DNA of 64,000 nt from Diprion similis (Eukaryota; Arthropoda; Insecta; Hymenoptera; Diprionidae). Below, in pieces: positions 398 to 45,151 of the stretch. The position numbers and the translations under genes were made by a program. Location: NCBI RefSeq assembly GCF_021155765.1, contig NC_060113.1:6215001-6279000 (forward strand), given 5' to 3'. Below the pieces are notes generated by a model. That model worked only from the letters and a program-made list of their open reading frames with translations. It did no database searches and had not been told where the DNA came from. How positions within the stretch are numbered: the first letter of the stretch is position 1; each line of letters opens with the position of its first letter.

Positions 398-3300
398 ATG
401 TCGCGGGATCCTCGAGCCCTACTGATGGTAATACCATTACTATTTGGTTGTCTCGTGTTGGCTGTCGGGAATTCTGAAATCAAGGGTAAGTGGAAATATT
501 GAGGCACTCGGAGAGAAAGTGATGTTAGAAATCTAATTGGGTACATGATACTGTTGACCGAATTTCGAAGTCGTGATATCCGCATCACTGGAGCTGTATC
601 CACGCCACGTCACGTATATAATTGATCCTATAGTTCTTCATGCATAATTTTTTTTTTTCACTTCAATACGGCACAAAGAAGGCGTACTCGCTTGTGTCGA
701 TATCTTCTTCCTATTCAGAGTCATGACCGACTGAAAATGAACAAATGTGATATGTGTTTTATTGTTTGGAAATTCATATGGCGAACGTAATGCGCTGAAT
801 GTGAGATGAACATCATCAAATTGATGAGCAAGTCACTTCAACCAAAACAACTGTTTCAACAGAAATCAGAGAAGGTAAAATCCCCGCGGGTTGAAACCTG
901 AATTTCAGTCGGCATGGACAACCTCGCAAACCCTTTGTAAGTTTTCTGTACTTTGTGCTAGGTCGGACTATTCCGGATGCCACAACTGTTTTGGGGATTG
1001 TAGGAAATCCAGCGGCTCTAGAATGCGACGTGCGGGGATCTGTCGCTGAAATTAAGTGGCGAAAAATCAAAGGGCAACCGAGAAGCGAGAAGATCTTGAG
1101 GAAACTCACCGAAACTCGGCGCTACAACAAGACGTATTCAAGAACGAGTCTATATTTTTCAAACTTCTCACGGGACGACGAAGGAACTTACAAATGCTGG
1201 GCAAATGATGACAAAAACTTGACAACAAGCAGTAACATTTATCTTTATGTTATTTCGGATCGGACCGATGTGAAGTTGCTTCCCGTTGCTTTGGATGCGA
1301 ATACGATTTGTGTGAAATGGGAGATTTCATATTATTTGGCGCGCTATTATGTTAAATCGCTTCGCATTGAATCCCAGGAAAACGATTCACGCGAATGGCA
1401 TGGCAAGTATCAGACGTCAACTGAGCTCCGCAGCGGTGTCTATATTGCAGAAGGATTGAAACAAGACACAGACTACTGGTTCAAATTTATTTTGGAAAAT
1501 AATTTTCCACTAACTCTTGTTGGTTTTTCGGGACGAACAAAGACGCTAGAGAGAAATCCAGGTATAGCAGCTTCTCAATTCATTCAAAATTACACCCTGC
1601 AGTGATGAATATCACTCTCGCTATGCAAATTTTCAAGCTGCTTTAAGAAACTCCGTTCATTTTTTTATGATCAGAGATTTTTTGAACATGTATGGAAATG
1701 AATTTGAATATTTATTTTTGTTAATTTATTCGGTGAGATCTGTGAAAACGCATTTTGTATTTATTTGAGGTGATTTACTGTGATTCATTTTTATGCAGAA
1801 CCTCTATACCTTCCAATCGTTTCGGCTAGAGAAACGTCTGTCGATTCAATAACGATTGAATGGACAAAGCCACCTCTGGAAGTGGAAGATTGCTTCAAGT
1901 GGTACAAAGTTGGAATATACGAGTCAAACAGCAGTGGAGAACGCATATACAAGAGAGTAGCAACCACCAAAAACACTTGTAGAAAATTTGAGAATCTGAG
2001 ACCTTCAGTCGCTTATACGTTTGAATTACGTTTATGCGTCGATTCTTTGTGTCAACAAATCCTTTACGAAAGTTTCTGGTCGGACGATATCGTCCCAAAA
2101 GACAGGGGTATTGATATAACAATCACGGGTATAGATTGGCGAGGGATAACATGATGAAACTTGGAATTTCCAGATCCGAAATTCACCCCGAATGTTTCGG
2201 TGGTCGAAACTGGCGTCGCTTCAGCAACGATTGCGTGGAACGCACCACCGGCGAACTTGGAAGACCGCATTTATTACTACAAAATAGCATTGGACACCGA
2301 GTATTTCAGGAAGGAACTATACGTGAAGAAGACAGAGAATTTTTACAAATTCGAAAATCTTCCGCTGAACAAAACTAATCGATTCAAAGTAGCAGCCTGC
2401 AGCGATTACAAAACGCAATGCGGTAATTGGAGCGAGGAACGAGAAGCTTTCATAGACATCACAGGTATGACATGGAGATCTCAAAGAATTCAAGTGGAAA
2501 TAGAAAGAAGACTCGACGTTACTCGCTTCTATCAGAATTTGTTAATCATCATTGTATTTCTGTAACTAAACCGGTAAGATGCGTGACATTTTTCGGCTTC
2601 TCGCCGAACGAGAATAGTTCACGAGATTTTCGATAGAATGAAGTTGAACAAAAGCTTGAATAGAGGTGACACTTAACAAGGAACCGAGATTTATTAGTTC
2701 GTCAAGTTAGAGCAAGAGTGAAATTTTATTGACAATCGGGAATTGACGGAATTGACGATAGATTGCAATGGTAGTGACGAAAAGAAGAAAATACAGAATT
2801 TACGATGGACGATGAATAACGGAAGAGATAGACATTGATCAACAATTATCAAACATCGGTAGCTTAGATGACAGGATATTGATTACAGTGGTAAAATTGA
2901 TGATTTACAACAGTCAAAGGTATGAGGTAAAACTAACAAACAAATTCGGATTTATAATTCAGGAGAGATTATAAAACTATGAGAGTGAGAGAATTAGAAA
3001 AGGTTTCGCGAGGTAAAGGAATACACTGAATACACCTGATTACGATAAGCAGAACTCAAATTAACAAAAAAGTACGGTATTCTAGAAACATGAAATATAT
3101 GAAAGGTGAAAAGATATCGATACAAAAATACAAGAGAAATTACAAAAGCAGTTATAGCATGCAACTACAAAAGAATCGGAGAGATCAGAGATACAAAAGA
3201 TAGTCATTCGATAGTTACGAGGTCAGTCAACGATAATTTTTCGGAATTAATTATTCAACGAAATCGTGCAGTCACACGACTACTTACAGCGAGTCATCGT

Positions 3301-6066
3301 TTCCGGACCATGACTCAAAATGATTATAATCCTTACTGATTGGAAGGCTGCGTCGATCTTCGGAACGAGGGCTCCATTAAACTGGATAAGGATTGTGGAT
3401 GTCTTGGTACCTGGTTAGATTGCACGAAGGCGCGGAATTACAGAATTTACGAAGAAAAACATTAGTTACTAGTAGTTGTTGCCTATTTTGTATCAGATTT
3501 TCTTTGAGGACCTTACCGGGGACGCGTTTCACGAGAGTTTCTTTCAACCTTTTGGCCTTGTAACGGGCCATTCTAAAATGCCACATTACAACGTATTATT
3601 GATTCAATTACGTTATCCGATTATCAGATTCCAGAAGTGGGATAGAAGATGAAATATGGCTGATCACGGGAGCAATAGCTGTTCTACTTGTCATCGTCGT
3701 TGTAACGCTGCTGGCTCGGAACTGTCGCAGAAAGGTACTTTATACCCTGATAAATTTACTCTTGGCTCTCGTACCACGATGAACGGACTCATTGATTCCT
3801 CAACATGGAAAATGGCTCTGACGTTGTTGTGCAGGTACTAAAGCGAAAAATGATAAAAGCAAGACTGGAGTACTTCAATTTCGGGGCCCAGATTTCTCTT
3901 GATCCAGAATTGGCTGTGAGCGATCAGGCCGAGTTACTGCCGTATAACAAGAAATGGGAATTTCCACGGGATCTCCTGAAACTCGGTAATCCGCTGCTTC
4001 ATTTCCTCCACAGTAGTAGAAACTAAATACTAACCAAGAAACTCGGTATTTATAGTTAAGGATCAAGTATCGAAGCATGAGGTTTTTCCGTCAATTGACA
4101 TTTTCTTTCTGACATGAAATCATTTACTTCATGTTTCCGCAAAAAAGTTTCAGGTCTTATCGTCATGCTTATCCGACACAGACCCTTTGTGCACTACCCA
4201 ACTCGCTCTGTCGAAGTTTTTCCAAGCACAACCAATCGGTGGTCCGTCATGCATACCATTTACCTTTCAGACGAAGTACTAGGAAGTGGTGCGTTCGGCG
4301 TTGTGAGAATGGGACATGCGAAAACGATTTCCTCACGCGAGACAGTCACGACAGTTGCCGTCAAGACGGTCCGACCGACGGCCAACCTGAAGTGCATGAA
4401 GGCCCTTTATCGCGAACTCAAGATTCTCGTCTACCTGGGTCAACATCTGAACATCGTCAACCTTCTCGGCGCGTGTACCAAAAATATTGATTTGGGTGAG
4501 TCGGTGTAGGTGATTGATGGGTAATGAGTATGACGTCACACCATACGACCTCATGGAGAATAAGACTCACATATTCCGTTGGATTTCGATAGGAGAACTC
4601 TTGGTCATCGTCGAATACTGCCGATACGGAAATTTGCACGACTACTTGATACGACGCAGAGTCAACTTTGTCAATCAATTGAACAGTTCCGGAGAAGAAA
4701 TGAGCGTTCTGACTGCCTGTGAAGACGCGATGAATATCGATGACGTTGGGTAAGTCGCATGACCCAACACTGACATAAATGTTGGTGATTTCCGACTTAT
4801 CTTTGTTACGTCTCTATTTATTCGTGTCCGTATGACGGCGATATCATCATGATTTGTTTGACGATAGCTGCAATTGACTTCAAACCGATTCCCACCTTTA
4901 GAACCGGAATTCTCTTCACTTATTTTCGAATGGTCTCGGGAGAATATCATGACTTGACATGAGCTAATCAATTTATCTTGTCGCAACTGAATTGCGATGA
5001 ATCTCCGAGGACTAACCGTCATCGTCGAAACGGTTGCGCGTTTGTCCAGAGGATTCGTGAGAAACGAGTTCATTATTTCACCATCTAAACTGTAGCTTAA
5101 TTTTATTGTGTTATTCATGCAGTATCAACACGGATAGAGATTCCGACGGTAATTCAGAAATAATCAACTGCCCGAGTGACGTTGCTTCTACGACTACGGA
5201 TGCGAGAGTAGAAGAGTGTTCCTCTAATGATATTTCAACGGAACTCACCGCGCCATTGAAGTATCCAGGTGATCAGACAGACTTCAACTCAAAGCCGATG
5301 TGCACGTCCGACTTGGTGTGTTGGGCTTGGCAAGTCTCGTGTGGCATGCAGTACATCAGCGAGAAAAGAGTATGAAAAAATTCAAGACTGTCATCTTTTC
5401 GTAACAGCAGTCCCAAATGCTGACATATTTCACACGTGGTTTTATTCGCTAGCCTTAGACCGACATTGAAAATCACCCAAGTCTGTACGGACATTGGTGC
5501 GTAGAATGGAGTCTGCGATTATTCGTGTTTCAGATAATACACGGTGACTTGGCAACGAGAAATCTACTTCTAACCGACGACAACGTGGTGAAGATCTGTG
5601 ACTTTGGTTTGTCCAAGTCTCTCAGGGAAGAAGAGAATCAGACGAGCACGGAAAACGGTCCTCTTCCCGTCAAGTGGATGGCCATCGAGTCGCTCAGAGA
5701 TCGAGTATTTTCCACAAAATCGGACGTCTGGTCTTTCGGGGTGGTTTTGTGGGAACTGTTCTCCTTAGCGAGAACTCCTTACCCCCTGATAAGACCCGAG
5801 GATATGTGCCAAACACTGGCCGAAGGTTATCGTATGGAGAAACCGCAATACGCGTCCAGAAGCATGTGAGTGCCAAAAGCCGATTTTACCCGAATCGTCA
5901 ACGAATAAACACGCAACTCATAGGAATATTTCAAACCAAGATTTTTCACTTGTACTTCAGTTACCAAATGATGCTTCGTTGCTGGAAAGCGGAGCCATCG
6001 GAACGACCATCGTTCGAAAGGCTGAAGATCGACATTTCCGAGTTAATCGAAGAGCATGTGAAAACG
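398..6066 (+). CDS. Receptor tyrosine kinase, Pvr/PDGFR-VEGFR type, copy A
   Basis: This gene encodes a membrane receptor with a cytoplasmic tyrosine kinase. The exons I read are 398-485, 962-1561, 1799-2128, 2174-2464, 3628-3734, 3835-3985, 4271-4495, 4593-4749, 5123-5369, 5534-5865 and 5961-6066. All junctions are GT-AG and keep phase, giving 878 codons before the tail. Exon 1 is a signal peptide with a hydrophobic core after the ATG at 398. Exon 2 holds an Ig domain (Cys pair, DEGTYKC) and an FN3-like domain. Exons 3 and 4 are FN3 domains. Exon 5 contains the membrane helix (AIAVLLVIVVVTLLA). The kinase has GSGAFG, AVK, HGDLATRN, DFG and a Ser/Asp-rich insert. The closest kinase family I know is insect Pvr, but Pvr has seven Ig domains, so the ectodomain does not fit. 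The splice acceptor of the terminal exon used in copy B is deleted here, so the C-terminal tail is uncertain. Confidence 0.8.
2465..3627 (+). other. Large intron of RTK copy A
   Basis: This intron separates the last FN3 exon from the membrane-helix exon. It begins with a clear donor (ACAG|GTATGA) and ends at TTATCAG. I see no gene in it. Short open frames such as that at 3106-3339 are not shared with the matching intron of copy B, which is only about 656 bases long. Confidence 0.6.
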
Positions 6067-6169
6067 GTAAGCTTAATCGCTTGTAAAATTTGCAAGTATA
6101 TATCCATCGTTACCTGCTAAATCATCTGCATCAATTATACTTGACAAATTGTGAAAAGCAACACTTATT

Positions 6170-6285
6170 TGTGTCTTCAATAGTGCGATTTAGTTCAAAA
6201 AAATTTCAATATACCTACAAAAAATGTTCCCTTCGGGTCTGCAACGAAGCCTCAAAAAGACTGATCATTGTGGCACCAGTTTCAG
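6170..6285 (+). other. Terminal-exon remnant of RTK copy A without its acceptor
   Basis: The sequence around 6213-6260 matches the last coding exon of copy B (17581-17634), and the tail frame still ends at a TGA. The bases carrying the acceptor CAG and the first tail codons in B (CCAGGCGTATGC) are missing here and read CTAC. Either another upstream AG, for example at about 6191, is used, or the preceding intron is read through to the TAA near 6118. Confidence 0.6.
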
Positions 6286-6378
6286 TGTGTGGAAAAAATA
6301 TTTTTCTATAAACGTAAAAAATTTATATCCGCGAATTTTCAACACAACTTGTCTTTCTTGAGTCTCAGGAAGAAATGT

Positions 6379-7911
6379 GTGATAGATTCCTTGGTGTCAA
6401 AGGTCGCTCAGTCAAAAATTGACGGATAAATGACGTTTCGGCCCTGAGTGGGGCTCTCCTCATAACCACAATTTGATGAACAATTGATATTGCACACAGG
6501 CAAAAATTCCTATATACGCTTTAGCGCAATAGAACATACAAAGAAAGGAGACAAGAAATAAAGAACTTACATTAAAATACGAAAAAAACCTCAAGTCGAG
6601 GTAAAGATTCCATGCAAGGAAGAAAAGAAGCTTTACACATCAGATCAACAAATAACAGAACAAAGAACCTCAATCTTATTCCTGGTCAGGGGATGCAATC
6701 GTCGACTGAAAAGTACGGTCAGGTGTCAAAAGTGTAAACGTTGAGCTCACTCGTCGTGCGTGAAAGGGGCTTACCACATATTTACAACTAGTGTAGTTCA
6801 AATTCCATCTGGCTCTTTGGGAGACATGATAAATCAGAGGTAATCAGTAAAAATAAAACTTGTCACATGTATAAATAAAATTGTAAGTGTAAATGTAAAA
6901 ACGTGGAGTGTAAACACGTAAAAATTGCATAGCGAGCTGGCAGAACGTGCCTACAACCGAGGGGAAACTACTGATACGGAAACCAGAGAATAAATACTAG
7001 AACGAAACACAGTGTCTAATTATGCCGTTGTGTCGCCAACGAATCACGCTTAGTTTGACCAAGAAAGTTAAAATGTTACGGAAAGTTAAAAGTTATAAAT
7101 GTTAGAAAAGGTGTAAAAAAGTTAAACAGTTAGGTACATACGTTGTCGTGAAGAGGATTACTTGTGGAGTTTGAACGTAATCAAGTTGTAATACGCGTTA
7201 CTGAGGCTGTCTGTGTCTGGTCTCAAGTTAATAGAATCTCTGTCTCCCAGGATACTGCACATTTCTAGGACCAACCGCTTTCTGTAATCCTTTGCACGAC
7301 GAAGAATGCTGACATTATCATAATTAAAGTTATGATTTTACTCCACTCTTGTGTTTTCTCAGGGCTGTTTGTCTGTCTGGGTCTGCAAAAATGTTACGTT
7401 TGTGTTCATTTGAACTAGTTTTAAGGCAACGGCTTGTTTGACCTATGTAACATTTGTTGCAATTCCCACATGGTATCTTATATACTAGGTTTGAACGCTT
7501 TTAAATGGGGACATGGTCTTTTGGTAAGACTAACAGCCCTGACAAATTCTTGTTATTTTTGAAAACACATCTAATTTGGAACTTTTTAAGGGCTCTACGA
7601 AGAATTTGGGACAGGCCTTTGACATAAGGAAACGTCATAATAGAAGCCTTGGTGACTACATTGTCAGTTGTAGCGACTATTCCTTGTTCTAAATGTGCAT
7701 TGTCTCTAATCATCGATAAACGAGTAGTAATTCACTTATCAATCAAAGCGGGAGGATAATCGTTCTTCAACAAGACATCTCTGATCAACTTTATAGTCTT
7801 GAGATGAAACGATTCGTTTGCCGATAGGACACCCCTGTCCCTGCCCCCCTGTTTTGACACCAAGAAATCTATCACACAATTTTGAATAAGGTCGAGACAA
7901 AGTTTCAACTT
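6379..7911 (-). mobile_element. Penelope-like retroelement fragment, disrupted
   Basis: The insertion is flanked by a perfect 12-base duplication, AGGAAGAAATGT, at 6367-6378 and 7912-7923. The matching sites behind RTK copies B (near 17740) and C (near 45293) are empty. Minus-strand translation of about 7150-7911 gives a Penelope-type C terminus: a reverse-transcriptase end (FPYVKGLSQILRRAL), then a GIY-YIG endonuclease (KIPCGNCNKCYIGQTSR, NEHKRN), then a DYRKRLVLEM / DRDSINLRPDTDSLS segment. A TGA and a TAA break the frame, so it cannot make an intact protein. The 5' part of the element is absent. About 25 bases of the element recur in inverted orientation at the 6379 end, a layout common in this class. 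Confidence 0.85.
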
Positions 7912-7923
7912 AGGAAGAAATGT

Positions 7924-10013
7924 ATCGTGTAATTCTTGGCGACCCTTTTATATCGCCATTTGTCTGTTATGCGCTTCAGATAATCTTTTCCGGCCGTAGC
8001 GTGTTCCTTGGTACAATATGAAAAAGATAATACGTGTCGAAGGTTTGCTAATATCTATTTTTGACTAGTTTGAAAAAATACTTTTTACACGCTTTAAAAC
8101 CGGCGCTGCAGTGATCAGTATTTTTAATGCTTCCATTTAGACCAGAAGCACGAATTTCTTTCATGCGCTCGTAGAAAAATCAACAATTTTCGGAATCTGA
8201 AACATCCAAATATGTATTGAATGTATTTAAACGAATGATTTTTTTTCCACGTTGCATGATATAACGCCACGATGGTGGCATGGAAACACATTTCAGTTTT
8301 ACCTGGATTTGGGCAATCCGTACACCAGGATCTACGCAGATATCTGGAAACGCGAGAGAGAGAATCCGGCAAGTGCGGAAGAATCGGTCGACCTCCGAGA
8401 AGATTCGTGATTAAATAATTCCGGTCAACGTATTCAATGTTGATTCGTGTTCGCCTATCTGCATGGATCTACCACGATGCATAGCAAGCAGGGATACAAT
8501 GTCGTCAAAACTAAAGGTTCTGATTGGATGTTATTCCAATAACCAATTATGGTATGTCAAATCCTATCGAAGTATTCAAGCAATGGAATTCGACTTTTAA
8601 AAGGAAGAAAACCTCTGAATTTTTATTTTCAATAAAATTTTTTCGAACGAAAGTCACGCATCCGAAGGCTCAAAAAACGCTCTGATCGACTCAGGCATTT
8701 TCAGTGCTCATACGTGGTAAAACTTATGCAAATTGTAAATTAAAAAACTTGAGGAATTTCGAAAACTCAATTCTTTTCACGCCCACACGTTACGATATCG
8801 ACAAAAATATGTACGTTGGGTGAATCCCGATTGGATTGTAGACCAGAAAGGAGTTTCACACTGTATGAAATATTGTAGACGGAAAACTTTTCAAAGATAT
8901 TTTACAACGTATCCTTTCTACCGAAAAATAATTTGATGTTTTCAAAATAAGCTATAAACTTTACATAGAATGTCGACATAAATGTACGGAAGAGTCATAT
9001 TTGAGAATGATAACGAAAGAAAGAATCCCTCATCATTTCAATTGATTTCAGATCAGACGGTATATAAATTTTGGACACGTAATAAATTTTCTCGAATTCT
9101 ACGCGGCCTGATCACGAAACAAATGTGCCGGCAAAATTTTGATATTAATTTTACATACAGAATTTCAAACACTGGATGAACATTTGAAAGCGTTCGGAAC
9201 ATTTCATTCCAATGCAGGACGGTGGATAGAAATAAAAAAAACTACACATTTTGGTCCTGTTGCGTTAGCTTCTAACAAGTTTTTTGCGATATTTATCCAT
9301 ATCGACAACTGGAGGTAAAAATATCGATATTACACCTCCATATCTTACATAATCGATACTCGTACTGCAATATCGATAAGAGTGTATCAAGATCTCAACT
9401 GCCAAACAATAAACTGAGAATAATTCAATTCAGAGAAACCTGAAGTACTAATATTAAACGTAGTGTTGATGTATTTATCGAGTTATTATGGATTCTACTT
9501 AGATGATTAATTCTGATTTTTTGAACGGTAAAATGTTATGTACAATGAAAATTTTCTCAACTAGAGTAAGTCTGAATAAACAATACAAACTGAAGCAGAT
9601 TTACAATTCTTCTTCCAAGTAAATATTTGTCGATATTTTCTACATCGATATTGAAGAGCGCGATAAATATCGATTCGAAATATCGATACGCCAACGAAAT
9701 CACCGAACACCATTCAGACTGCTGCTCCTTCTCGATATTCAATTCCAAATCCAAGTTTACGGGTGAACCCCACCCCTGCGTTGTAGATCGCACATTTGTC
9801 AGTCGGCAAGACATTCCAACGAGAAAATACATCGACCAGACACTGTGCTGCCACCTTGTAACAGCCGACCAACAAACACACTTCCTTGGCTGAAAGCTAA
9901 TCGATTTAATCGCATACTTTGAAATTTCTAGCGCGAGTACAAAACATTTATGCATCTACTAAATATCCATACGTTATTATCCGCGCACCCGCTAACCGCT
10001 GATTATGAAACAG
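7924..10013. repeat. RTK downstream duplicated unit, copy A
   Basis: This non-coding block recurs behind RTK B (about 17750-19920) and in part behind copy C (about 45300-46529). A piece is inverted at 33360-33730. A landmark is the GCGCTTCAGATAAT stretch near 7970. Relative to B it has lost about 300 bases near 8515 and carries about 260 extra bases around 8780-9040. Open frames inside are not kept in the copies in a way that suggests a protein. Confidence 0.75.
9285..9700. promoter_or_regulatory. Cluster of TATCGATA-like motifs, copy A
   Basis: Several ATCGAT cores lie at about 9297-9400 and 9640-9690, including AATATCGATATT inside a near-perfect palindrome at 9310-9340. TATCGATA is the DRE motif bound by DREF in insects and is typical of housekeeping promoters. 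The cluster recurs in the copy at 19165-19600. No transcript can be assigned from sequence alone. Confidence 0.4.
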
Positions 10014-10020
10014 GTTTTAC

Positions 10021-10042
10021 ATATATATATATATATATATAA
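10021..10042. repeat. (TA)n microsatellite
   Basis: An uninterrupted run of TA dinucleotides. The shorter counterpart behind RTK copy B is at 19933-19948. Confidence 0.9.
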
Positions 10043-10113
10043 TTGCAGACACGTACAGGCTACTCAGTCTCGCATTTGCAATTTACAAGCAACTGTAAGA
10101 ACCTGTGTGTACA

Positions 10114-10729
10114 CGGGGGTGGCGCAAAAAAACCGACTATTTTTTTTTTTTTTCTCATTCTCGTATGACAAAATGTTAGTTTTTGATGTTTTAAGAGCCC
10201 ACTCCAAAGGACAGCTGAAAAAAAAAATTTTGAGAGGTTGCTCCAAGTTTTTTAAAATGTCGAAAATCGTCAAAAAATTAAATTAAACAAATTGTATTTT
10301 CGATATTTTGTTTGATTTTTAATTCATGTCGTGGTGTATTGTTATCGATTCTTTCTTACTAAATTCAGGAAAAAAAATTCATGAAATTTTAATAGGAATA
10401 TCAAAAGGTTGCTCGAAAAAATCTAAAGAAATGCACCAAAAAATTTAAAAAAAATCATGAGCGACCTTTCAAAATTCAAATTTTGAACTGAAACTTTCAG
10501 AGACTTATTTGTTTTTTATCTAAAAAATTATACCGTAGCGACAAAAAAAATTTGAAAAAAAAAATCGATTTTTGACGGGTTCTGAGGTTTCAAAAACTGT
10601 GGAACGACCTCTCAAAATTTTTTTTTTGAACTGTCCTTTGGAGTGGGCTCTTAAAACATCAAAAACTAACATTTTGTCACACGAGACTCAAAAAAAAAAA
10701 ATATAGTCGGTCTTTTTGCGCTACCCTAG
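10114..10729. mobile_element. hAT-type foldback MITE
   Basis: The two halves of this 616-base element are inverted copies of each other, with ends that read C(G/T)(G/A)GGGT(G/A)GCGC. It is flanked by an 8-base duplication with one mismatch: TGTGTACA at 10106-10113 and TGTATACA at 10730-10737. An 8-base duplication and CAGGGGTGGC-like ends are typical of hAT elements. It contains no transposase and is therefore non-autonomous. A transcript through it would form a long hairpin. Confidence 0.75.
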
Positions 10730-10799
10730 TGTATACACATGACACGTACTTTGAGGTGTATGTGTGCGGCACTCGCAAAGATAAGTCACAACAAGATAG

Positions 10800-12293
10800 G
10801 GATTATTCTATAGAATCTCTGTCGTTCTTTTGAATTATTTATTATCAACCAAGTTTCTTTTGAAATCACTTTCATGTGCATGTGCGAATGATTTTTTCAA
10901 TATATATGTATATATGTTTTTATCTTTTTCTTTACAATATATTTGGTAGATTTTGGCTATTGCCTTTAACCTTGTCTCGCTGTCCCTTTTATTTATACCT
11001 ATATACAAATATATGTGCTTACCAATATACATTTCTTTTTTTGCATTTATCTTATTTCGTTGATGATTTTGGCCAACATATTTTATAATTCGGACGTAAT
11101 CACCCAAATCCATTACATTCGTTACAGAACCTATCGACGCGCCCTGTTGCCTTGTTTTATTACTGCAAGCATGAATATATTTCACGGATCTACGACGATG
11201 TTGCAGAATTCTTCAGTTCTCTCAGAATTTGCAAAATTCTATGCATATTTGCTCGAATTCGAGGTGCATGTATTACAAATAAGTCCGTATGTCTATAATA
11301 CGACTGGCAGTAATGAAAAAAAAAAATCCTTCTGAAAAGTTTCCGTCATTTGTTTTGGCTTACTAACATAATAATCCTGACGTCTAGAAACTGATATAAA
11401 GTCACCGGTCAGGATGAACTACGCCCTATATTCTACAGAGTCTTTAGCAGATCTGCCGTGACTTGTAATCAGATACTGAATAGAAACATATTATTGGAAA
11501 GGAATCCATTTGACGCACGACGCATGTCGAGTATCCTGTTTCATTTCTCACTAATTCGATGACTTTCTGATGAATATCCTGTTATTGTACGTTTCTGATA
11601 TAGATAAAAGATGTGTTTCATCCGAATTGATGATTTAATGGCTAACCGTTTGATTATTGACCGGAATCAACGTTTCATTTCTGCGTCCATGTCCTCGACG
11701 TTCACCACAAGTTCTTACGAGCCCAAACGAGAGGAAAATGTATGAAAGAATTGAATATCATTGAGAATTCTAAAAAACAAGTATTGATTTATAACTAAGC
11801 GAACATCTTTGGCGCCTCGAAATTACATGTAAATATTTTGTTTGCTGTCCCGGCTGTAGCGATTTGAGTCATCCAGAAATAACTAATTGGAACATTGTAG
11901 ACAAGAGAATTATTGCAGAAGTCATTCATAATTCACCTACAGCTGCTTTTTGTTCGGGAGAATCCGATACTGCTGTGATAGATTCGACCGTGTTCAATGG
12001 AATGGAGAACTTGGCTACAACGTGATGTCCGTTACCAATAGAGACGTCGCACTGAGTCGGGCGAGAGAATTCGTGACACGACAAACTTACAGGAAGCTGT
12101 GAGATGGCCGATGTTTTTGCGGTCAACCACGATTTCCATTTTTGGTTTTTTATCAGAGTTGACGTATGTTTGCGCTTATGATGTAACCCATTTTACCCTT
12201 TGCTGCACGTTGAAGGCATTAAGTGTAGTTCGTAGAGTGAAGTTCCGCAGTCGAAAAGAATCCACGATTCACGGTGTACGTCGAAGAGACGTC
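10800..12293 (+). other. 5' flank of RTK copy B
   Basis: No gene is evident. Positions 10920-11325 reappear at 42845-43250 and positions 11826-12118 at about 40954-41270, both upstream of copy C but in the reverse order. The segment from 12051 matches the start of the window. Confidence 0.6.
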
Positions 12294-15200
12294 ATGTCGC
12301 GGGATCCTCGAGCCCTACTGATGGTAATACCATTACTATTTGGTTGTCTCGTGTTGGCTGTCGGGAATTCTAAAATCAAGGGTAAGTGGAAATATTGAGG
12401 CACTCGGAGAGAAAGTGATGTTAGAAATCTAATTGGGTACATGATACTGTTGACCGAATTTCGAAGTCGTGATATCCGCATCACTGGAGCTGTATCCACG
12501 CCACGTCACGTATATAATTGATTCTATAGTTCTTCATGCATAATTTTTTTTTTTTTCACTCCAATACGGCACAAAGAAGGCGTACTCGCTTGTGTCGAAA
12601 TCTTCTTCCTATTCAGAGTCATGACCGATTGAAAATGAACGAATATGATACTTGTTTTATTGTTTGGAAATTCATATTGCGAACGTAATGCGCTAAATGT
12701 CAGATGAACATCATGAAATTGATGAGCAGGTCGCTTCGACCAAAAACAACTGTTCCAAGAGAAATTGGAAGAGGTAAAATCCCTGCTGGTCAGTAGCCTG
12801 AATGTTAGTCGGCATGGACAACCTCACAAATCCCTTTGTAAGTTTTCTGTACTTTGTGCTAGGTCGGACTATTCCGGATGCCACATATGTTTGGGGGATC
12901 GCAGGAAATCCAACGGCTCTAGAATGCGAGGTGCTGGGATCTGTTGCTAACTTTGGGTGGCGAAAAATCGAAGGGCAACCGACAAGCGAGGAGAACTTGA
13001 GGGAAATCACCGAAACTTGGCGCTACAACAAGACGTATTCAAGAACGAGTCTATATTTTTCAAACTTCTCATGGAGAGACGAAGGAACTTACGAATGCTG
13101 GGCAAATGATGACGAAAACTTGACAACAAGCAATGACATTAAACTTTCTGTTGATTGGAAGGTGGAATACGTACAGTTGCCTCTCGTTGCTTTGGATGCG
13201 AATAGGATTTGTGTGAGATGGGAGATGTTGCGTCTTATAAATAACAATTTGGTTCCGTCGCTTCGCATTGAATCCCAGGAAAACGATTCACGCGGATGGC
13301 ATGATGGGTATCAGACGTCCACTGAGTTCCTCAACGGTATTTTTATTGCAAGAGGATTAAAACAAGACACAGACTACTGGTTCAAATTTATTTGGAAAAT
13401 GCAAGATTCAGATATTATTGTTACTTTTTCCGGACGAACAAAGACTCTAAAGAGAAATACAGGTATAGTAGCTTCTCAATTTATACAAAATTCCACCCTG
13501 CAGTAAATGAATATCACTGTCGCTATGGAAATTTTTAATTTGCTATGAGAAACTCCGTTCATTTTTTTATAATCAGAGATTTTTTAAACATGTATGGAAA
13601 TAAATTTGAATATTTATTTTTGTCACCTTATTCGGTGAAATTTGTGCAAACCCATTTCGTATTTATTCAAGGTGATTCACTGTGATTTATTTTAATGCAG
13701 AACCTCTATACCTTCCAATCGTTTCGGCTAGAAAAACGTCTGTCGATTCAATAACGATTGAATGGACAAAGCCACCTCTGAAAGTGGAAGATTGCTTCAA
13801 GGGGTACATAGTTGAAATATACGAGTCAAACAGCAAAGGAAATTTCATATTCAAGTACTCAGTAACCACTATAAACACCTATAGAAAATTTGAGAATCTG
13901 AGAACTTCAGCCACTTATACATTCGTATTACGTTCATGCAGCGATTCTTCGTGTCAACAATACCTTGGCGAGAGTTTCTGGTTGAAAGATATCGTCCCGA
14001 AAGACAGGGGTATTGATATTACATTAACGGGTATACATTGGCGAGGAAAAACATGATTAACCTCGAAATTTCCAGATCCGAAATTCACCCCGAATGTTTC
14101 GATAGTCGAAACGGGCGTCGCTTCAGCAACGATTGCGTGGGACTCACCACCGGCGAACTTGGAAGACCGCATTTATTACTACAAATTAGCGTTGCACAAC
14201 GAAGACTTCCATAAGGAACTGTACGTAAACAAGACTGAGAATTCTCACACATTCGAAAATCTACCGCCGAACACGACTCATCGATTCAAAGTAGCGGCCT
14301 GCAGCGATTACAAAACGCAATGCGGTAATTGGAGCGAGGAACGAAAAGCGTTTACACAAATTACAGGTATGACATGGAGATCTCAAGGAATTTAAGTGGG
14401 TATAAAAAGAAGACTCTAGGTCACTCGCTTTCTTCAGAATTCGTTGATCATCATTCTATTTCTGTAACTAAACCGGTGAGAAGCGTAACATTTTTCGGCT
14501 TCTTGCTTCTTCTCAGCTGCGAAGTGTAAATCACAATCCATTTGCATGTGTGTTGACATGAAGTTGGGACGTATGAGAAAACGTATTTATCATGTTGTAT
14601 GGCTAGTTAGGCTCATGTACTCAAACGAACTGCAGGTAGAGTGGCGGTATCCAAGGCAGTCAATGATAATAACAGGAGAAATTAACCGTTCAATCAGTCG
14701 TATATTGTTAAATTCACACGCGTTGGATTAGTTTGTTACAAAAGATAGCAATGAACAATTAGATTTGGCTCCATCAAACTGGATCAGGATTGTGGATGTC
14801 CTGATATGATAACCTGGTTAGCTTGCGCCAAGGCGCGGAATTACAGAATTTACGAAGAAAAATATTAGTGACTAGTAGTTCTTGCCATCAGGTTTTCTTG
14901 GAATACCCTGCCGGGGACGCGTTTTACGAGAGTTTCTTCTAACCTTTCGGCCTTGTAACGGATCATTCTGAAATGCCACGTAACAACGTATTGTTGATTC
15001 AATTACGTTATCCGATTATCAGATTCCAGAAGTGGGATAGAAGATGAAATATGGCTGATCACGGGAGCAATAGCTGTTCTACTCGTCATCGTCGTTGGAA
15101 CGCTGCTGGCTCGGAACTATCGCAGAAAGGTACTTTATACCCTGATAAATTTAGTCTTGGCTCTCGTGCCACGGTAACATTCGTTAACATGGGAAATGGC

Positions 15201-17634
15201 TCTGACATTGTTGTACAGACACTGAAGCGAAAAATGATAAAAGCAAGATTGGAGTACTTCAATTTCGGGGCCCAGATTTCTCTTGATCCAGAATTGGCTG
15301 TGAGCGATCAGGCCGAGTTACTGCCGTATAACAAGAAATGGGAATTTCCACGGGATCTTCTGAAACTCGGTAATCCGCTGCTTTATTTCTATCCCAGTAG
15401 TAGAAACTGAATACTAACCAAAAAACTCGGTATTCATAGTTAAGGATCAAGTATCGAAGGATGAGGTTTTTTAGTCAATTGACATTTTCTTTCTGACGTG
15501 AAATCATTCACTTGGTGTTTCTGCAGAAAAGTTTCAGGTCTTTTCGTCATACGTATCCGGCCCAGACCCTTTGTCCGATAACCAACTCGCTCTGTCGAAG
15601 TTTTTCCAAGTACAACGAATCGTCATGCATACTATTTACCTTTCAGACGAAGTACTAGGAAGTGGTGCGTTCGGCGTTGTGAGAATGGGACATGCGAAAA
15701 CGATTTCCTCACGCGAGACAGTCACGACAGTTGCCGTCAAGACGGTCCGACCGACGGCCAACCTGAAGTGCATGAAGGCCCTTTATCGCGAACTCAAGAT
15801 TCTCGTCTACCTGGGTCAACATCTGAACATCGTCAACCTTCTCGGCGCGTGTACCAAAAATATTGATTTGGGTGAGTCAGTGTATCATCGTCGTCACAAC
15901 ATCCGACGTCATATGGAGAATAAGACTCACATATTCCGTTGAATTTCGATAGGAGAACTCTTGGTCATCGTCGAATACTGCCGATACGGGAATTTGCACG
16001 ACTACTTGATACGACGCAGAGTCAACGTTGTCAATCAATTGAACAGTTCCGGAGAAAAAATCAGCGTTTTGACTGCCTGTGAAGACGCGATGAATATCGA
16101 TGACGTTGGGTAAGTCGCATGACCCAACACTGACATAAATGTTGGTGATTTCCGACTCATCTTTGTTACGTCTCTATTTATTCGTGTCATTATGACGGCG
16201 ATATCATCATGATTTGTTTGACGATAGCTGCAATTGACTTCAAACCGATTCCCACCTTTAGAACCGGAATTCTCTTCACTTATTTTCGAATGGTCTCGGG
16301 AGAATATCATGACTTGACATGAGCTAATCAATTTATCTTGTCGCAACTGAATTGCGATGAATCTCCGAGGACTAACCGTCATCGTCGAAACGGTTACGCG
16401 TTTGTCCAGAGGATTCGTGAGAAACGAGTTCATTATTTCACCATCTAAACTGTAGCTTAATTTTATTGTGTTATTCATGCAGTATCAACACGGATAGAGA
16501 TTCCGACGGTAATTCAGAAATAATCAACTGCCCGAGTGACGTTGCTTCCACGACTACGGATGCGAGAGTAGAAGAGTGTTCCTCTAATGATATTTCAACG
16601 GAACTCACCGCGCCATTGAAGTATCCAGGTGATCAGACAGACTTCAACTCAAGGCCGATGTGCACGTCCGACTTGGTGTGTTGGGCTTGGCAGGTCTCGT
16701 GTGGCATGCAGTACATCAGCGAGAAAAGAGTATGAAAAAATTCAAGACTGTCATCTTTTCGTAACAGCAGTCCCAAATGCTGACATATTTCACACGTGGT
16801 TTTATTCGCTAGCCTTAGACCAACATCAAAAATCACCCAAGTCTGTACGGACATTGGTGCGTAGAATGGAGTCTGCGATTATTCGTGTTTCAGATAATAC
16901 ACGGTGACTTGGCAACGAGAAATATGCTTCTAACCGACGACAACGTGGTGAAGATCTGTGACTTTGGTTTGTCCAAGTCTCTCAGGGAAGAAGAGAATCA
17001 GACGAGCACGGAAAACGGTCCTCTTCCCGTCAAGTGGATGGCCATCGAGTCGCTCAGAGATCGAGTATTTTCCACCAAATCGGACGTCTGGTCTTTCGGG
17101 GTGGTTTTGTGGGAACTGTTCTCCTTAGCGAGAACTCCTTACCCCCTGATAAGACCCGAGGATATGTGCCAAACACTGGCCGAAGGTTATCGTATGGAGA
17201 AACCGCAATACGCGTCAAGAAGCATGTGAGTGCCAAGAGCCGATTTTACCCGAATCGTCAACGAATAAACACGCAACTCATAAGAATGTTCCAAACCAAG
17301 ATTTTTCACTTGTTCTTCAGTTACCAAATGATGCTTCGTTGCTGGAAAGCGGAGCCATCGGAACGACCATCGTTCGAAAGGCTGAAGATCGACATTTCCG
17401 AGTTAATTGAAGAGCATGTGAAAACGGTAAGCTCGATCGCTTGTAAAATTTGCAAGTGTATATCCATCGTTACCTGCTAAATCATCTGCATCAATTATAC
17501 TTGACAAATTGTGAAAAGCAACACTTATTTGTGTCTTCAATAGAGCGATTTAGTTCAAAAAAATTTCAATATCCCTCCAGGCGTATGCAAAAAATGCTCC
17601 CTTCGAGCCTGAAAAGAAGCCTCAAAAAGAATGA
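12294..17634 (+). CDS. Receptor tyrosine kinase, Pvr/PDGFR-VEGFR type, copy B (intact)
   Basis: The twelve exons are 12294-12381, 12863-13462, 13701-14030, 14076-14366, 15023-15129, 15219-15369, 15647-15871, 15953-16109, 16483-16729, 16894-17225, 17321-17426 and 17581-17634, in total 2688 nt or 895 aa. Residues 1-29 are a signal peptide. Residues 30-229 are an Ig domain (YECW) plus an FN3-like domain. FN3 domains follow to about 436, then a membrane helix at about 448-469 and a basic stop (ARNYRRK). The juxtamembrane has KKWEFPRDLLKL. Kinase landmarks are the P-loop GSGAFG (527-532), Lys554, helix-C Glu571, HGDLATRN (735-742) and DFG (755-757). The kinase insert is rich in Ser, Thr and Asp. 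The tail is only about 17 residues. The arginine of HRD is glycine and the activation loop has no tyrosine. The ligand is unknown. Phosphorylation of signalling partners at the plasma membrane is inferred from the family. Confidence 0.87.
14031..14075 (+). other. Very short intron, 45 nt
   Basis: The donor GTATAC and the acceptor TTTCCAG keep the phase-1 frame between the two FN3 exons. The same 45-nt intron is found in copy A (2129-2173) and copy C (44847-44891). Read-through would bring in-frame stop codons, so splicing is needed. Confidence 0.65.
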
Positions 17635-32970: not shown

Positions 32971-33239
32971 ATCCTTTATACGTTCCACTCGTTCGGGCTA
33001 GAGAAACGACTATCGATTCAATCACCATTGAATGGCCAAAGCCACCGTTAGAGGTAGAGGATGGCTTTGTTGATTACAGAGTGAAAATAATCGAGAGAAG
33101 TTCTGGCATAACAAAATTCATGGATGAAACATTCACTCGAAACAATTATGCAAAATTCGAAAATCTGACAACTTCGTCCGCTTACAAGTTTCATTTATCT
33201 GTATGCGTGGATCCGGTTTGCGATCACATTGATGAGTAA
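32971..33239 (+). pseudogene. Lone FN3 exon, relic RTK copy D
   Basis: After an acceptor CACGCAG the phase-1 frame reads DPLYVPLVRARETTIDSITI and onward, with the FN3 signature EWPKPPLEVEDGF and the Cys pair near its end. It is the counterpart of the first separate FN3 exon of copies A-C (for example 1799-2128) but more diverged. It stops at TAA 33237-33239 instead of reaching the usual donor. No other RTK exon lies nearby. It is most likely a remnant of an older copy. Confidence 0.75.
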
Positions 33240-39853: not shown

Positions 39854-40890
39854 TCATTTCTTCAGGCCGATGTTCTCGCAGAGTTTCCTTAGTTTGACAG
39901 CTCCGATGGCCTTCGCGAACATGTCCGCCTCGTTGGATTCGGTAGAACAATATTTAATCATGACGATTCCTGCTTCTTGCAGCTTTCTAGTAGTATAGAA
40001 ATGTTTGGTGTCAATGTGTTTTGTCCGGTTTGTGAATCCGACAGTTTTAAGGCGGTTTATGCAGCTTTGATTGTCTTCATAAATGACGGTTGGACTTGCC
40101 TGGTTTTTGTCAAAACTTTCAAGTAGCTTCTGCATCCATACCTCTTCTTGGCAAGTTTCCATCAACGCTATGAGTTCTGCTTCCGTTGAAGACAATGCCA
40201 CGCATCCTTGCTTGCGACGAGTATATATCCGCTGTTGGATTTTCGATCTCCTCGATCTTCAGCCCAATTTGCATCTGCGAATCCTTTTAGCTCTGACATT
40301 CGTCCGTTATTTTTTTCACTCGATCGTAATTCATAATTGATCGTTTCCTACAGGTATCCTGCAACCCGTTTTACCTCCACCCAGTCAATTCTTTTTGGAG
40401 CTTCAATATGTCGACTCAGGATTGCAACTGGTGCCGCAATATCCGGTCTTGTGTTTACTGCGACGTACATCAAGGCTCCTATCATTCTGCGATCATTTTC
40501 GTTGACGATCGTTAGTGATTTTTCTCGAACTTTCTAGTATCCAGTGTCCATGAGGATATTCGATCCTTTTACTTCCAATATATTTCCGGATCTGAGTATC
40601 TTTTTAATGTAATCCCGCTGACGAATGTAAAAGTGTCCTTCGTCATCTCGTCGTATTTGGATTCCGAGATAGCACTGGACGTCGCCAAGGTCTACGATGT
40701 TGACTTGTGCGTTCAATGTGTCCTTCACTTCTTTGATCATTTTTGACGACCTACAGGCTACGACGATGTCGTCAACGTATACTGCAATATACATTGTTTA
40801 TTTTTCGCCATATGTTTTAATGTAGAGGCAAAGGCCGGCGTCGCTTCGGCGAAAACTGCGTTTCTTCAACACTTCGTTAAACCCGTCGTT
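39854..40890 (-). mobile_element. Ty1/Copia retrotransposon pol fragment, decayed
   Basis: Minus-strand reading from about 40890 to 39854 gives the end of a Copia reverse transcriptase (DAGLCLYIK, YVDDIVVACRS, CYLGIQIRRD, NTRPDIAAPVAILSR) followed by RNase H (SSTEAELIALM, IYEDNQSCINRL, NRTKHIDTKHF, ADMFAKAIG). Stop codons lie before the YVDD motif and between the two parts. No LTRs were identified. The fragment lies between the 5' flank of GMC1 and the upstream flank of RTK copy C. Confidence 0.88.
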
Positions 40891-43678: not shown

Positions 43679-45151
43679 GTCGGACTATTCCGGATGCCAC
43701 ATATGTTTGGGGGATCGCAGGAAATCCAACGGCTCTAGAATGCGAGGTGCTGGGATCTGTTGCTAACTTTGGGTGGCGAAAAATCGAAGGGCAACCGACA
43801 AGCGAGGAGAACTTGAGGGAAATCACCGAAACTTGGCGCTACAACAAGACGTATTCAAGAACGAGTCTATATTTTTCAAACTTCTCATGGAGAGACGAAG
43901 GAACTTACGAATGCTGGGCAAATGATGACGAAAACTTGACAACAAGCAATGACATTAAACTTTCTGTTGATTGGAAGGTGGAATACGTACAGTTGCCTCT
44001 CGTTGCTTTGGATGCGAATAGGATTTGTGTGAGATGGGAGATGTTGCGTCTTATAAATAACAATTTGGTTACGTCGCTTCGCATTGAATCCCAGGAAAAC
44101 GATTCACGCGGATGGCATGATGGGTATCAGACGTCCACTGAGTTCCTCAACGGTATTTTTATTGCAAAAGGATTAAAACAAGACACAGACTACTGGTTCA
44201 AATTTATTTGGAAAATGCAAGATTCAGATATTATTGTTACTTTTTCCGGACGAACAAAGACTCTAAAGAGAAATACAGGTATAGTAGCTTCTCAATTTAT
44301 ACAAAATTCCACCCTGCAGTAAATGAATATCACTGTCGCTATGGAAATTTTTAATTTGCTATGAGAAACTCCGTTCATTTTTTTATAATCAGAGATTTTT
44401 TAAACATGTATGGAAATAAATTTGAATATTTATTTTTGTCACCTTATTCGGTGAAATTTGTGCAAACCCATTTCGTATTTATTCAAGGTGATTCACTGTG
44501 ATTCATTTTAATGCAGAATCTCTATACCTTCCAATCGTTTCGGCTAGAAAAACGTCTGTCGATTCAATAACGATTGAATGGACAAAGCCACCTCTGAAAG
44601 TGGCAGATTGCTTCAAGGGGTACATAGTTGAAATATACGAGTCAAACAGCAAGGGAAATTTCATATTCAAGTACTCAGTAACCACTATAAACACCTATAG
44701 AAAATTTGAGAATCTGAGAACTTCAGCCACTTATACATTCATATTACGTTCATGCAGCGATCCTTCGTGTCAACAATACCTTGGCGAGAGTTTCTGGTTG
44801 AAAGATATCGTCCCGAAAGACAGGGGTATTGATATTACATTAACGGGTATACATTGGCGAGGAAAAACATGATTAAACTCGAAATTTCCAGATCCGAAAT
44901 TCACCCCGAATGTTTCGATAGTCGAAACGGGCGTCGCTTCAGCAACGATTGCGTGGGACTCACCACCGGCGAACTTGGAAGACCGCATTTATTACTACAA
45001 ATTAGCGTTGCACAACGAAGACTTCCATAAGGAACTGTACGTAAACGAGACTGAGAATTCTCACACATTCGAAAATCTACCGCCGAACACGACTCATCGA
45101 TTCGAAGTAGCTGCCTGCAGCGATTACAAAAAATGCTCCCTTCAGGTCTGA
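43679..45151 (+). pseudogene. Truncated RTK copy C: ectodomain exons only
   Basis: The exons are 43679-44278 (Ig plus FN3-like), 44517-44846 (FN3) and 44892-45151 (FN3, cut short). They are nearly identical to copy B and keep frame and splice sites. The third exon is interrupted after CSDYK and fused to the terminal-exon sequence of the gene, which gives a TGA at 45149-45151. The membrane, juxtamembrane and kinase exons are gone, and the signal-peptide exon is missing upstream. As it stands it is probably a pseudogene. If an unseen leader exon were spliced in, the product would be a soluble ectodomain. That is speculation. Confidence 0.8.

Follow-up and report, generated by a model that had tools for sequence, protein, structure and literature searches.

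A multiplied family of receptor tyrosine kinases in Diprion similis probably joins a Pvr-type kinase to the ectodomain of a Ptp69D-like receptor phosphatase

Introduction

Receptor tyrosine kinases of insects are usually few, conserved and developmental in role. Among the described systems closest to the genes reported here are the PVR receptors, whose decapod crustacean members have been reported to be marked, with one exception, by an HGDLA catalytic loop (PMC11024359), and the receptor-type protein tyrosine phosphatase (RPTP) Ptp69D, which in the fly has been reported to help stabilise photoreceptor axons via presumed ligands (PMC5683756). Here we describe a family of receptor kinase genes in the hymenopteran Diprion similis, two complete members of which (copies A and B) lie in a stretch of 64,000 nucleotides on contig NC_060113.1 (positions 6,215,001 to 6,279,000 of assembly GCF_021155765.1), referred to below as the window. 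The original prediction, made from this DNA alone, had taken the two copies for Pvr-like kinases with an unusual ectodomain of one immunoglobulin (Ig) and three fibronectin type III (FN3) domains; its premise that Pvr and its relatives carry five to seven Ig domains is higher than the two to five reported for decapod PVRs (PMC11024359). We consider it likely that the genes encode chimeric receptors, in which the membrane helix, juxtamembrane region and split kinase of a Pvr were combined with the Ig/FN3 ectodomain of a Ptp69D-like RPTP.

Two complete receptor genes

Both copies give complete gene models of 12 exons each (Table 1), and the layout first proposed for them is recovered in full: a probable signal peptide, one Ig domain, three FN3 domains, a membrane helix and a split tyrosine kinase, to which a juxtamembrane region and a short tail are added. 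Copy B has GT donors, AG acceptors and compatible phases throughout, and copy A pairs with it exon for exon, with GT/AG at each internal junction and a stop that closes its last exon. By hydropathy and motifs, the two proteins have the signal peptide, the single membrane helix and the complete kinase motifs of receptor tyrosine kinases; the most hydrophobic window of 19 residues is at residue 441 in both and the second lies near the start, while all four kinase landmarks that had been quoted for them are present in A and B.

In copy B, Pfam detects the kinase (9.8e-85), two FN3 stretches (3.3e-15) and, weakly and under the curated cut-offs, the Ig domain; the Pfam scan gave no match for the FN3 domain that stands beside the Ig domain in exon 2. 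The Ig+FN3 reading of this exon is supported by its AlphaFold2 model (pLDDT, the predicted local distance difference test, of 86.7, from 11 sequences), whose best match in the PDB is the Ig5-FN1 tandem of NCAM.

Eighteen loci in the genome

A search of the genome (269 Mb in 60 contigs) with the kinase of copy B returned 18 family loci through their C-lobe, one of them partial, on contigs C1, C5, C9 and C10, followed by three Pvr genes and then by other kinases at no more than 53% identity. The amplification that had been read from the tandem pair thus holds, and it goes well beyond that pair. All 18 loci were inspected, A and B within the window and the other 16 in stretches of about 5-6 kb that sometimes fall short of a whole gene. 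They form three groups, in which 12 members were placed by tree and L151, L047, L056 and L152-L154 by similarity alone: 1) group 1, with A, B, L046, L043, L051, L151, L047 and L056, 2) group 2, on C10 and C1, with L041, L045, L049, L052, L054, L055, L152, L153 and L154, and 3) group 3, which is L048 alone.

The Ig plus three FN3 layout stands for A and B and varies in the rest of the family, with at least Ig, Ig+FN3 and FN3 in the four fully modelled members of group 2 (L041, L045, L052 and L055); the first Ig domain of L049 is incomplete, the sequence stretch ending inside it. Group 2 ectodomains may be longer still, since additional Ig+FN3 exons that may be part of these genes lie upstream of them: L041, L045 and L049 are preceded by a few kb, on their own strand, by near-alike exons (L158, L159 and L160), and a single open frame of 475 codons upstream of L052 (L156, C10:18580300-18582400) holds two Ig+FN3 units. 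The family also contains a recent duplicate, L051 and L151 (C9:5954700-5960600 and C9:5970600-5976500, spaced by 15.9 kb), which are 99.58% identical over 5,891 bases and differ at 25 positions, 13 of them within about 120 non-coding bases.

None of the 4 pattern matches in the viral contig collection was a relative. A collection of genome contigs gave 74 matching loci under bacterial titles, of which the one with the highest identity (L108, 67% over 33 residues), the only one read, is a bacterial kinase.

A kinase of Pvr type

Judged from its sequence, the kinase of the family is of Pvr type, as it has the HGDLA loop (12 of 12 tabulated members, and 3 of 3 Pvr genes), shares its intron positions with the three Pvr genes of the same genome and groups with them in trees. 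These genes, L044 and L050 on C11 and L053 on C7, which we take to be Pvr, carry upstream of the kinase open pieces that read as Ig domains, for which the Pfam Ig models score over a cut-off in three of five pieces in L044 (one more weakly, one not at all), one of three in L050 (the other two weakly) and two of three in L053 (the third weakly). Pvr is thus also multiplied in this genome, as a neighbouring pair (C11:6629400-6646500) and a third gene (C7:8138600-8144600). Another locus considered as a canonical Pvr, L042 (C2:15009465), was rejected, its kinase reading as that of a different receptor, presumably Cad96Ca-like.

With the phases of copy B's kinase imposed in the search, consistent splice sites were found in the Pvr genes for exons 6-11, with a shorter exon 11 in L050. 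Exon 6 is of one length in all seven genes compared, and so is exon 10. In two kinase trees, built from rows of this genome only, with long outgroup branches flagged and with L006, L007 and L008 dropped before the first, the 12 rows of the family come together in a single fork (93/95 and 96/96), which joins the three Pvr genes in a further fork (100/99 and 96/95) apart from the other included kinases. Such a separate kinase tree had been proposed as a check and agrees with the original prediction of a Pvr-type kinase on a non-Pvr ectodomain. As the ectodomain is built from Ig and FN3 domains, and not from Ig domains only as in the PVR family, we class the genes as having a Pvr-derived kinase and not as Pvr.

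An insect receptor kinase with an ectodomain unlike that of Pvr is already known in Torso (PMC4772477), and the family could in principle belong to it or to some other established receptor class of insects that combines Ig and FN3 domains. On indirect evidence we regard this as extremely improbable: the HGDLA loop and the common intron positions tie the kinase to the Pvr genes of the same genome, the trees place it with these and not with the other included kinases, and, besides these Pvr-specific features, no Torso chain appears among the PDB matches of the ectodomain up to an E-value of 10.

All 12 tabulated members have the catalytic residues (VAVK lysine, alpha-C glutamate, HGD and DFG, the latter as DYG in L055) and are therefore predicted to be active. 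Pvr has two tyrosines in the activation loop, group 2 one and groups 1 and 3 none, so that one or both are gone in all 12 members inspected, and the loop bears a run of acidic residues. Because these tyrosines are gone and acidic residues abound, switching on probably depends less on autophosphorylation of the loop. A tyrosine in a KYPGD motif of the kinase insert, found in 11 of 12 members (the insert of the twelfth is unreadable), is a candidate docking site.

Eight PDGF/VEGF-like ligand matches were found on C8, C2 and C6, seven of them over the family cut-off and four within 200 kb on C8. The fly has three Pvf genes, fewer than the matches found here. An expansion of ligands alongside the receptors was considered and set aside, eight matches being too few to claim it.

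An ectodomain related to a receptor phosphatase

Searched against the genome, the ectodomain of copy B gave 59 matches up to an E-value of 1e-3, of which only two fall outside the family loci and their upstream exons. Both are in one RPTP at C10:18.545 Mb, with an FN3 exon at 41% identity (5.2e-12) and an Ig+FN3 exon at 30% (2.2e-9). The exons of this RPTP (C10:18.541-18.547 Mb; L155 and L157), which by their order and strand appear to form one gene, encode in turn an Ig domain, an Ig and an FN3 domain in one exon, two single FN3 domains, a membrane helix and two phosphatase domains (2.6e-83 and 6.7e-26). We take it to be of Ptp69D type, a name that rests on the layout of the fly protein (two Ig and three FN3 domains). 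It shares its strand with L041 and L052, the former lying about 14 kb upstream of it.

The reverse search, from the RPTP, gave 43 matches up to 0.01, and after the RPTP itself the members of the kinase family come first, with exon 4 of copy B at 1.4e-12 and the Ig+FN3 exons of copy B and of copy C, a kinase-less copy in the window, at 3e-10. Outside the family, the best match is C4:10375574 at 1.3e-5, labelled LAR-like for its series of FN3 domains, which tandem phosphatase domains follow about 2 kb further downstream. Joined, three RPTP exons align with L045 at 27.6% identity over 370 columns (E 2.9e-23, with the database size set to 5 million), and all three match in order in group 2. Exon packing is common to both sides, with Ig+FN3 in one exon that leaves in phase 1 and an FN3 domain in one exon of phase 1-1. 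In group 1 and, for the most part, in group 2, the membrane exon resembles that of Pvr more than that of the RPTP, with weak scores. An unrooted ectodomain tree places the RPTP, with a long branch, between groups 1 and 2.

Many proteins contain Ig and FN3 domains, and identities of 23-40% for single exons could reflect no more than the likeness of any two Ig/FN3 proteins, without a special link to the phosphatase. We hold this to be improbable, given the reciprocal best affinity genome-wide, the LAR-like gene trailing by some seven orders of magnitude, the same exon order and one-exon Ig+FN3 packing, and the three exons in order in group 2. From the matching exons, and from each side being the closest relative of the other in both searches, we read the family as Pvr kinases that carry the ectodomain of a phosphatase. 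A and B have an Ig/FN3 ectodomain of Ptp69D type, measured against the one such gene of this genome, and are not members of that type, since a kinase stands in place of the tandem phosphatase domains.

Several observations speak against this fusion or loosen its details. Single-exon matches between group 2 and the RPTP are weak, both for the first Ig domain (E 1.75e-7 to 0.011 in four members) and for FN3 (1.9e-7 to 0.019 in five members). For the entry phase of the RPTP Ig+FN3 exon, 1 and 0 score equally, and for its first Ig exon 0 scores above 1. No counterpart of exon 3 of copy B was seen in the RPTP between the Ig+FN3 exon and the next FN3 exon, and the membrane exon of L048 and L052 leans to the RPTP by two points. 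The trees made here leave the direction of the fusion unrooted, and the gene models are read from genomic sequence.

A fast-changing tip and a constrained kinase

We compared non-synonymous and synonymous rates (dN and dS) by the Nei-Gojobori method, using 18 pairs for the Ig+FN3 exon; L054 and L153 (second Ig exon incomplete) and the broken L047, L056, L152 and L154 were left out, and L043 and copy C were included. The pairs are not independent of one another, and p values are uncorrected for many tests. In this exon dN exceeds dS in six pairs, all of them among the eight with dS below 0.2: dN/dS is 1.92 for A-B, 1.87 for A-C, 1.77 for A-L046, 1.59 for L041-L045 and 2.23 for L041-L049, and B-C shows 2 changes to 0. 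The kinase exons give 0.12-0.40 in 16 of 16 pairs and 0.13-0.22 in the close ones. For A-B, the excess of dN in exon 2 has a one-sided Fisher p of 0.012, and the contrast between exon 2 and the kinase is significant at 0.0004 for A-B, 1.0e-8 for L041-L049 and 2.2e-8 for L041-L045. Moreover, exon 2 of A and B is 82.5% identical, compared with 93.7% for the preceding intron 1. Taken together, the sequences strongly suggest that the Ig+FN3 tip of close pairs is often under diversifying change and the kinase under constraint, a contrast in rates that fits a conserved output with a changing recognition.

This fast tip is nonetheless a suggestion and not a proof, because the pairs depend on each other and gene conversion is likely, and part of the data pulls the other way. 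The other two close pairs have ratios of 0.94 and 0.79 and the ten distant pairs of 0.47-0.78; exon 4, the membrane-near FN3 exon, is constrained (0.36 for A-B), and the whole A-B ectodomain reaches 1.21 with a bootstrap of 0.85. Introns 2, 3 and 4 of A and B are 88%, 85% and 75% identical, so that only intron 1 exceeds exon 2 by a wide margin. A-B dS is lower in the kinase (0.041) than in the ectodomain (0.146), and gene conversion may distort the rates. Two of the six pairs weigh little because copy C is a probable relic, and 5 of the 18 loci look broken or truncated (L047, with in-frame stops; L043, with the frame of its insert exon disturbed, as judged by eye; L056, L152 and L154).

With these five loci and copy C in decay, one might take the copies for mostly functionless and the fast ectodomain for relaxed constraint. 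We think this very improbable, as the kinase is constrained in every pair compared, A and B both have an uninterrupted frame and undamaged catalytic motifs, and relaxed constraint predicts a ratio near 1 in the tip exon, not near 2.

Origin and possible mode of action

The two parts were most likely joined by recombination between phase-1 introns, one after the second FN3 exon of the RPTP and the other before the membrane-helix exon of Pvr. The last Ig exon of L044 and of L053 closes in phase 1, in which the membrane exon can also be entered, so that an intron-to-intron join would keep the reading frame without further change. We infer that the change ran from phosphatase to kinase, because the phosphatase layout is known in flies. 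The fusion gene would then have been multiplied by duplication to the 18 kinase loci, several copies decaying.

Whether such a fusion is special to this lineage is a separate matter, and we see a serious possibility, somewhat short of even, that it arose long ago and is found widely among Hymenoptera or insects at large, which would be compatible with the fusion described here. The family kinase has diverged far from Pvr, from which it follows that the fusion did not happen recently. Nothing speaks directly against a wide distribution, and no description of a phosphatase-kinase fusion of this kind was recognised in the open-licence papers searched; the words tyrosine kinase, PVR, VEGF and fibronectin are absent from the main text of a survey that covers 131 hymenopteran genomes (PMC12492102).

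As to function, the ectodomain would bind a ligand, or else a protein on an adjacent cell, and the receptors would then cluster, upon which the kinase may switch on with little or no loop phosphorylation and signal by the Pvr route. In flies this route is Ras/MAPK. The tip of the ectodomain would bind quickly changing partners, and an immune, a reproductive and a neural role are each possible. More speculatively, and in our estimation rather unlikely, the RPTP and the kinase family, having the same type of ectodomain, could read the same or related ligands with opposite enzymatic output, a pair from which a rapidly evolving recognition repertoire (for immunity, reproduction or self/non-self) would have grown.

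If confirmed, the family would offer a clear natural example of exons shuffled at introns of matching phase, both parents still having relatives in the genome. It would also be a receptor kinase wearing the outside of an enzyme of opposite sign, which would make the two an opposed-sign receptor pair. The multiplied genes with fast-changing tips suggest a recognition system.

Other features of the window

The window also holds a third, kinase-less copy (copy C) and a fragment D (Table 1). Copy C has lost its kinase exons and is probably a relic; no signal-peptide exon was found upstream of it by blastn, by a model or by four exact short peptides in three frames. As its frame is open to the stop, a role as a soluble decoy was considered, and rejected for lack of this exon upstream. 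The reverse strand bears a tandem cluster of at least four genes, several with long open frames, which we take to be GMC-oxidoreductase-like from a GAGSAGAV motif, and an open frame that presumably represents the end of a Copia-type retrotransposon polyprotein. Elsewhere in the genome, the mitochondrial contig C45 (L009) measures 25,279 bases, above the usual insect mitochondrial genome, with an AT-rich tandem repeat less than 1 kb upstream of cox1. Features of the mitochondrial COX1 point to Hymenoptera.

Table 1. Positions within the window of the receptor gene models and of other features.
Feature	Position	Strand	Description	Basis
Copy A	398..6264	+	complete receptor gene model, 897 aa	exon-wise alignment to B; last exon with stop
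Copy A, exons 1-6	398-485, 962-1561, 1799-2107, 2174-2464, 3628-3734, 3835-3985			
Copy A, exons 7-12	4271-4495, 4593-4749, 5123-5369, 5534-5865, 5961-6066, 6184-6264			
Copy B	12294..17612	+	complete receptor gene model, 893 aa, 12 exons	splice model, consistent phases
Copy B, exon 1	12294..12381	+	probable signal peptide	
Copy B, exon 2	12863..13462	+	Ig and first FN3, phase 1-1; fastest-changing part	AlphaFold2/PDB match; homologous RPTP exon
Copy B, exon 3	13701..14009	+	FN3, phase 1-1	
Copy B, exon 4	14076..14366	+	FN3, phase 1-1; best match of the second FN3 of the RPTP	
Copy B, exon 5	15023..15129	+	membrane helix, with which the Pvr-like part starts; preceded by a phase-1 intron	
Copy B, exons 6-11	15219..17426	+	juxtamembrane part and split kinase	Pvr-like intron positions
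Copy B, exon 9	16483..16729	+	kinase insert of 82 residues with the conserved KYPGD tyrosine	
Copy B, exon 12	17544..17612	+	short tail without tyrosine	
Fragment D	32973..33239	+	lone exon-3-like FN3	
Copy C	43679..45151	+	kinase-less; exons 2-4 near-identical to B, then in frame into the last-exon tail	
Tandem gene cluster	35007-62429	-	presumably GMC-oxidoreductase-like	GAGSAGAV motif
Open frame	39854-40258	-	presumably Copia-type polyprotein end	

Comparison with known systems

With Pvr, the family shares the split kinase, the HGDLA loop, the juxtamembrane and kinase intron positions and the entry phase of the membrane exon; it differs in having Ig and FN3 domains where Pvr has a run of Ig domains, in keeping one or none of the two activation-loop tyrosines of Pvr, and in being far more numerous. 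With the Ptp69D-type RPTP it shares the Ig, Ig+FN3 and FN3 exons in the same order and packing, whereas the RPTP has two phosphatase domains where the family has a kinase; its further FN3 domain and its juxtamembrane region were seen in neither A nor B. Torso resembles the family as an insect receptor kinase with a non-Pvr ectodomain and is set apart from it by indirect evidence. Finally, by analogy and with no homology claimed, the kinase family and the RPTP may be likened to the paired activating and inhibitory immune receptors of vertebrates, in which related ectodomains likewise serve opposite outputs.

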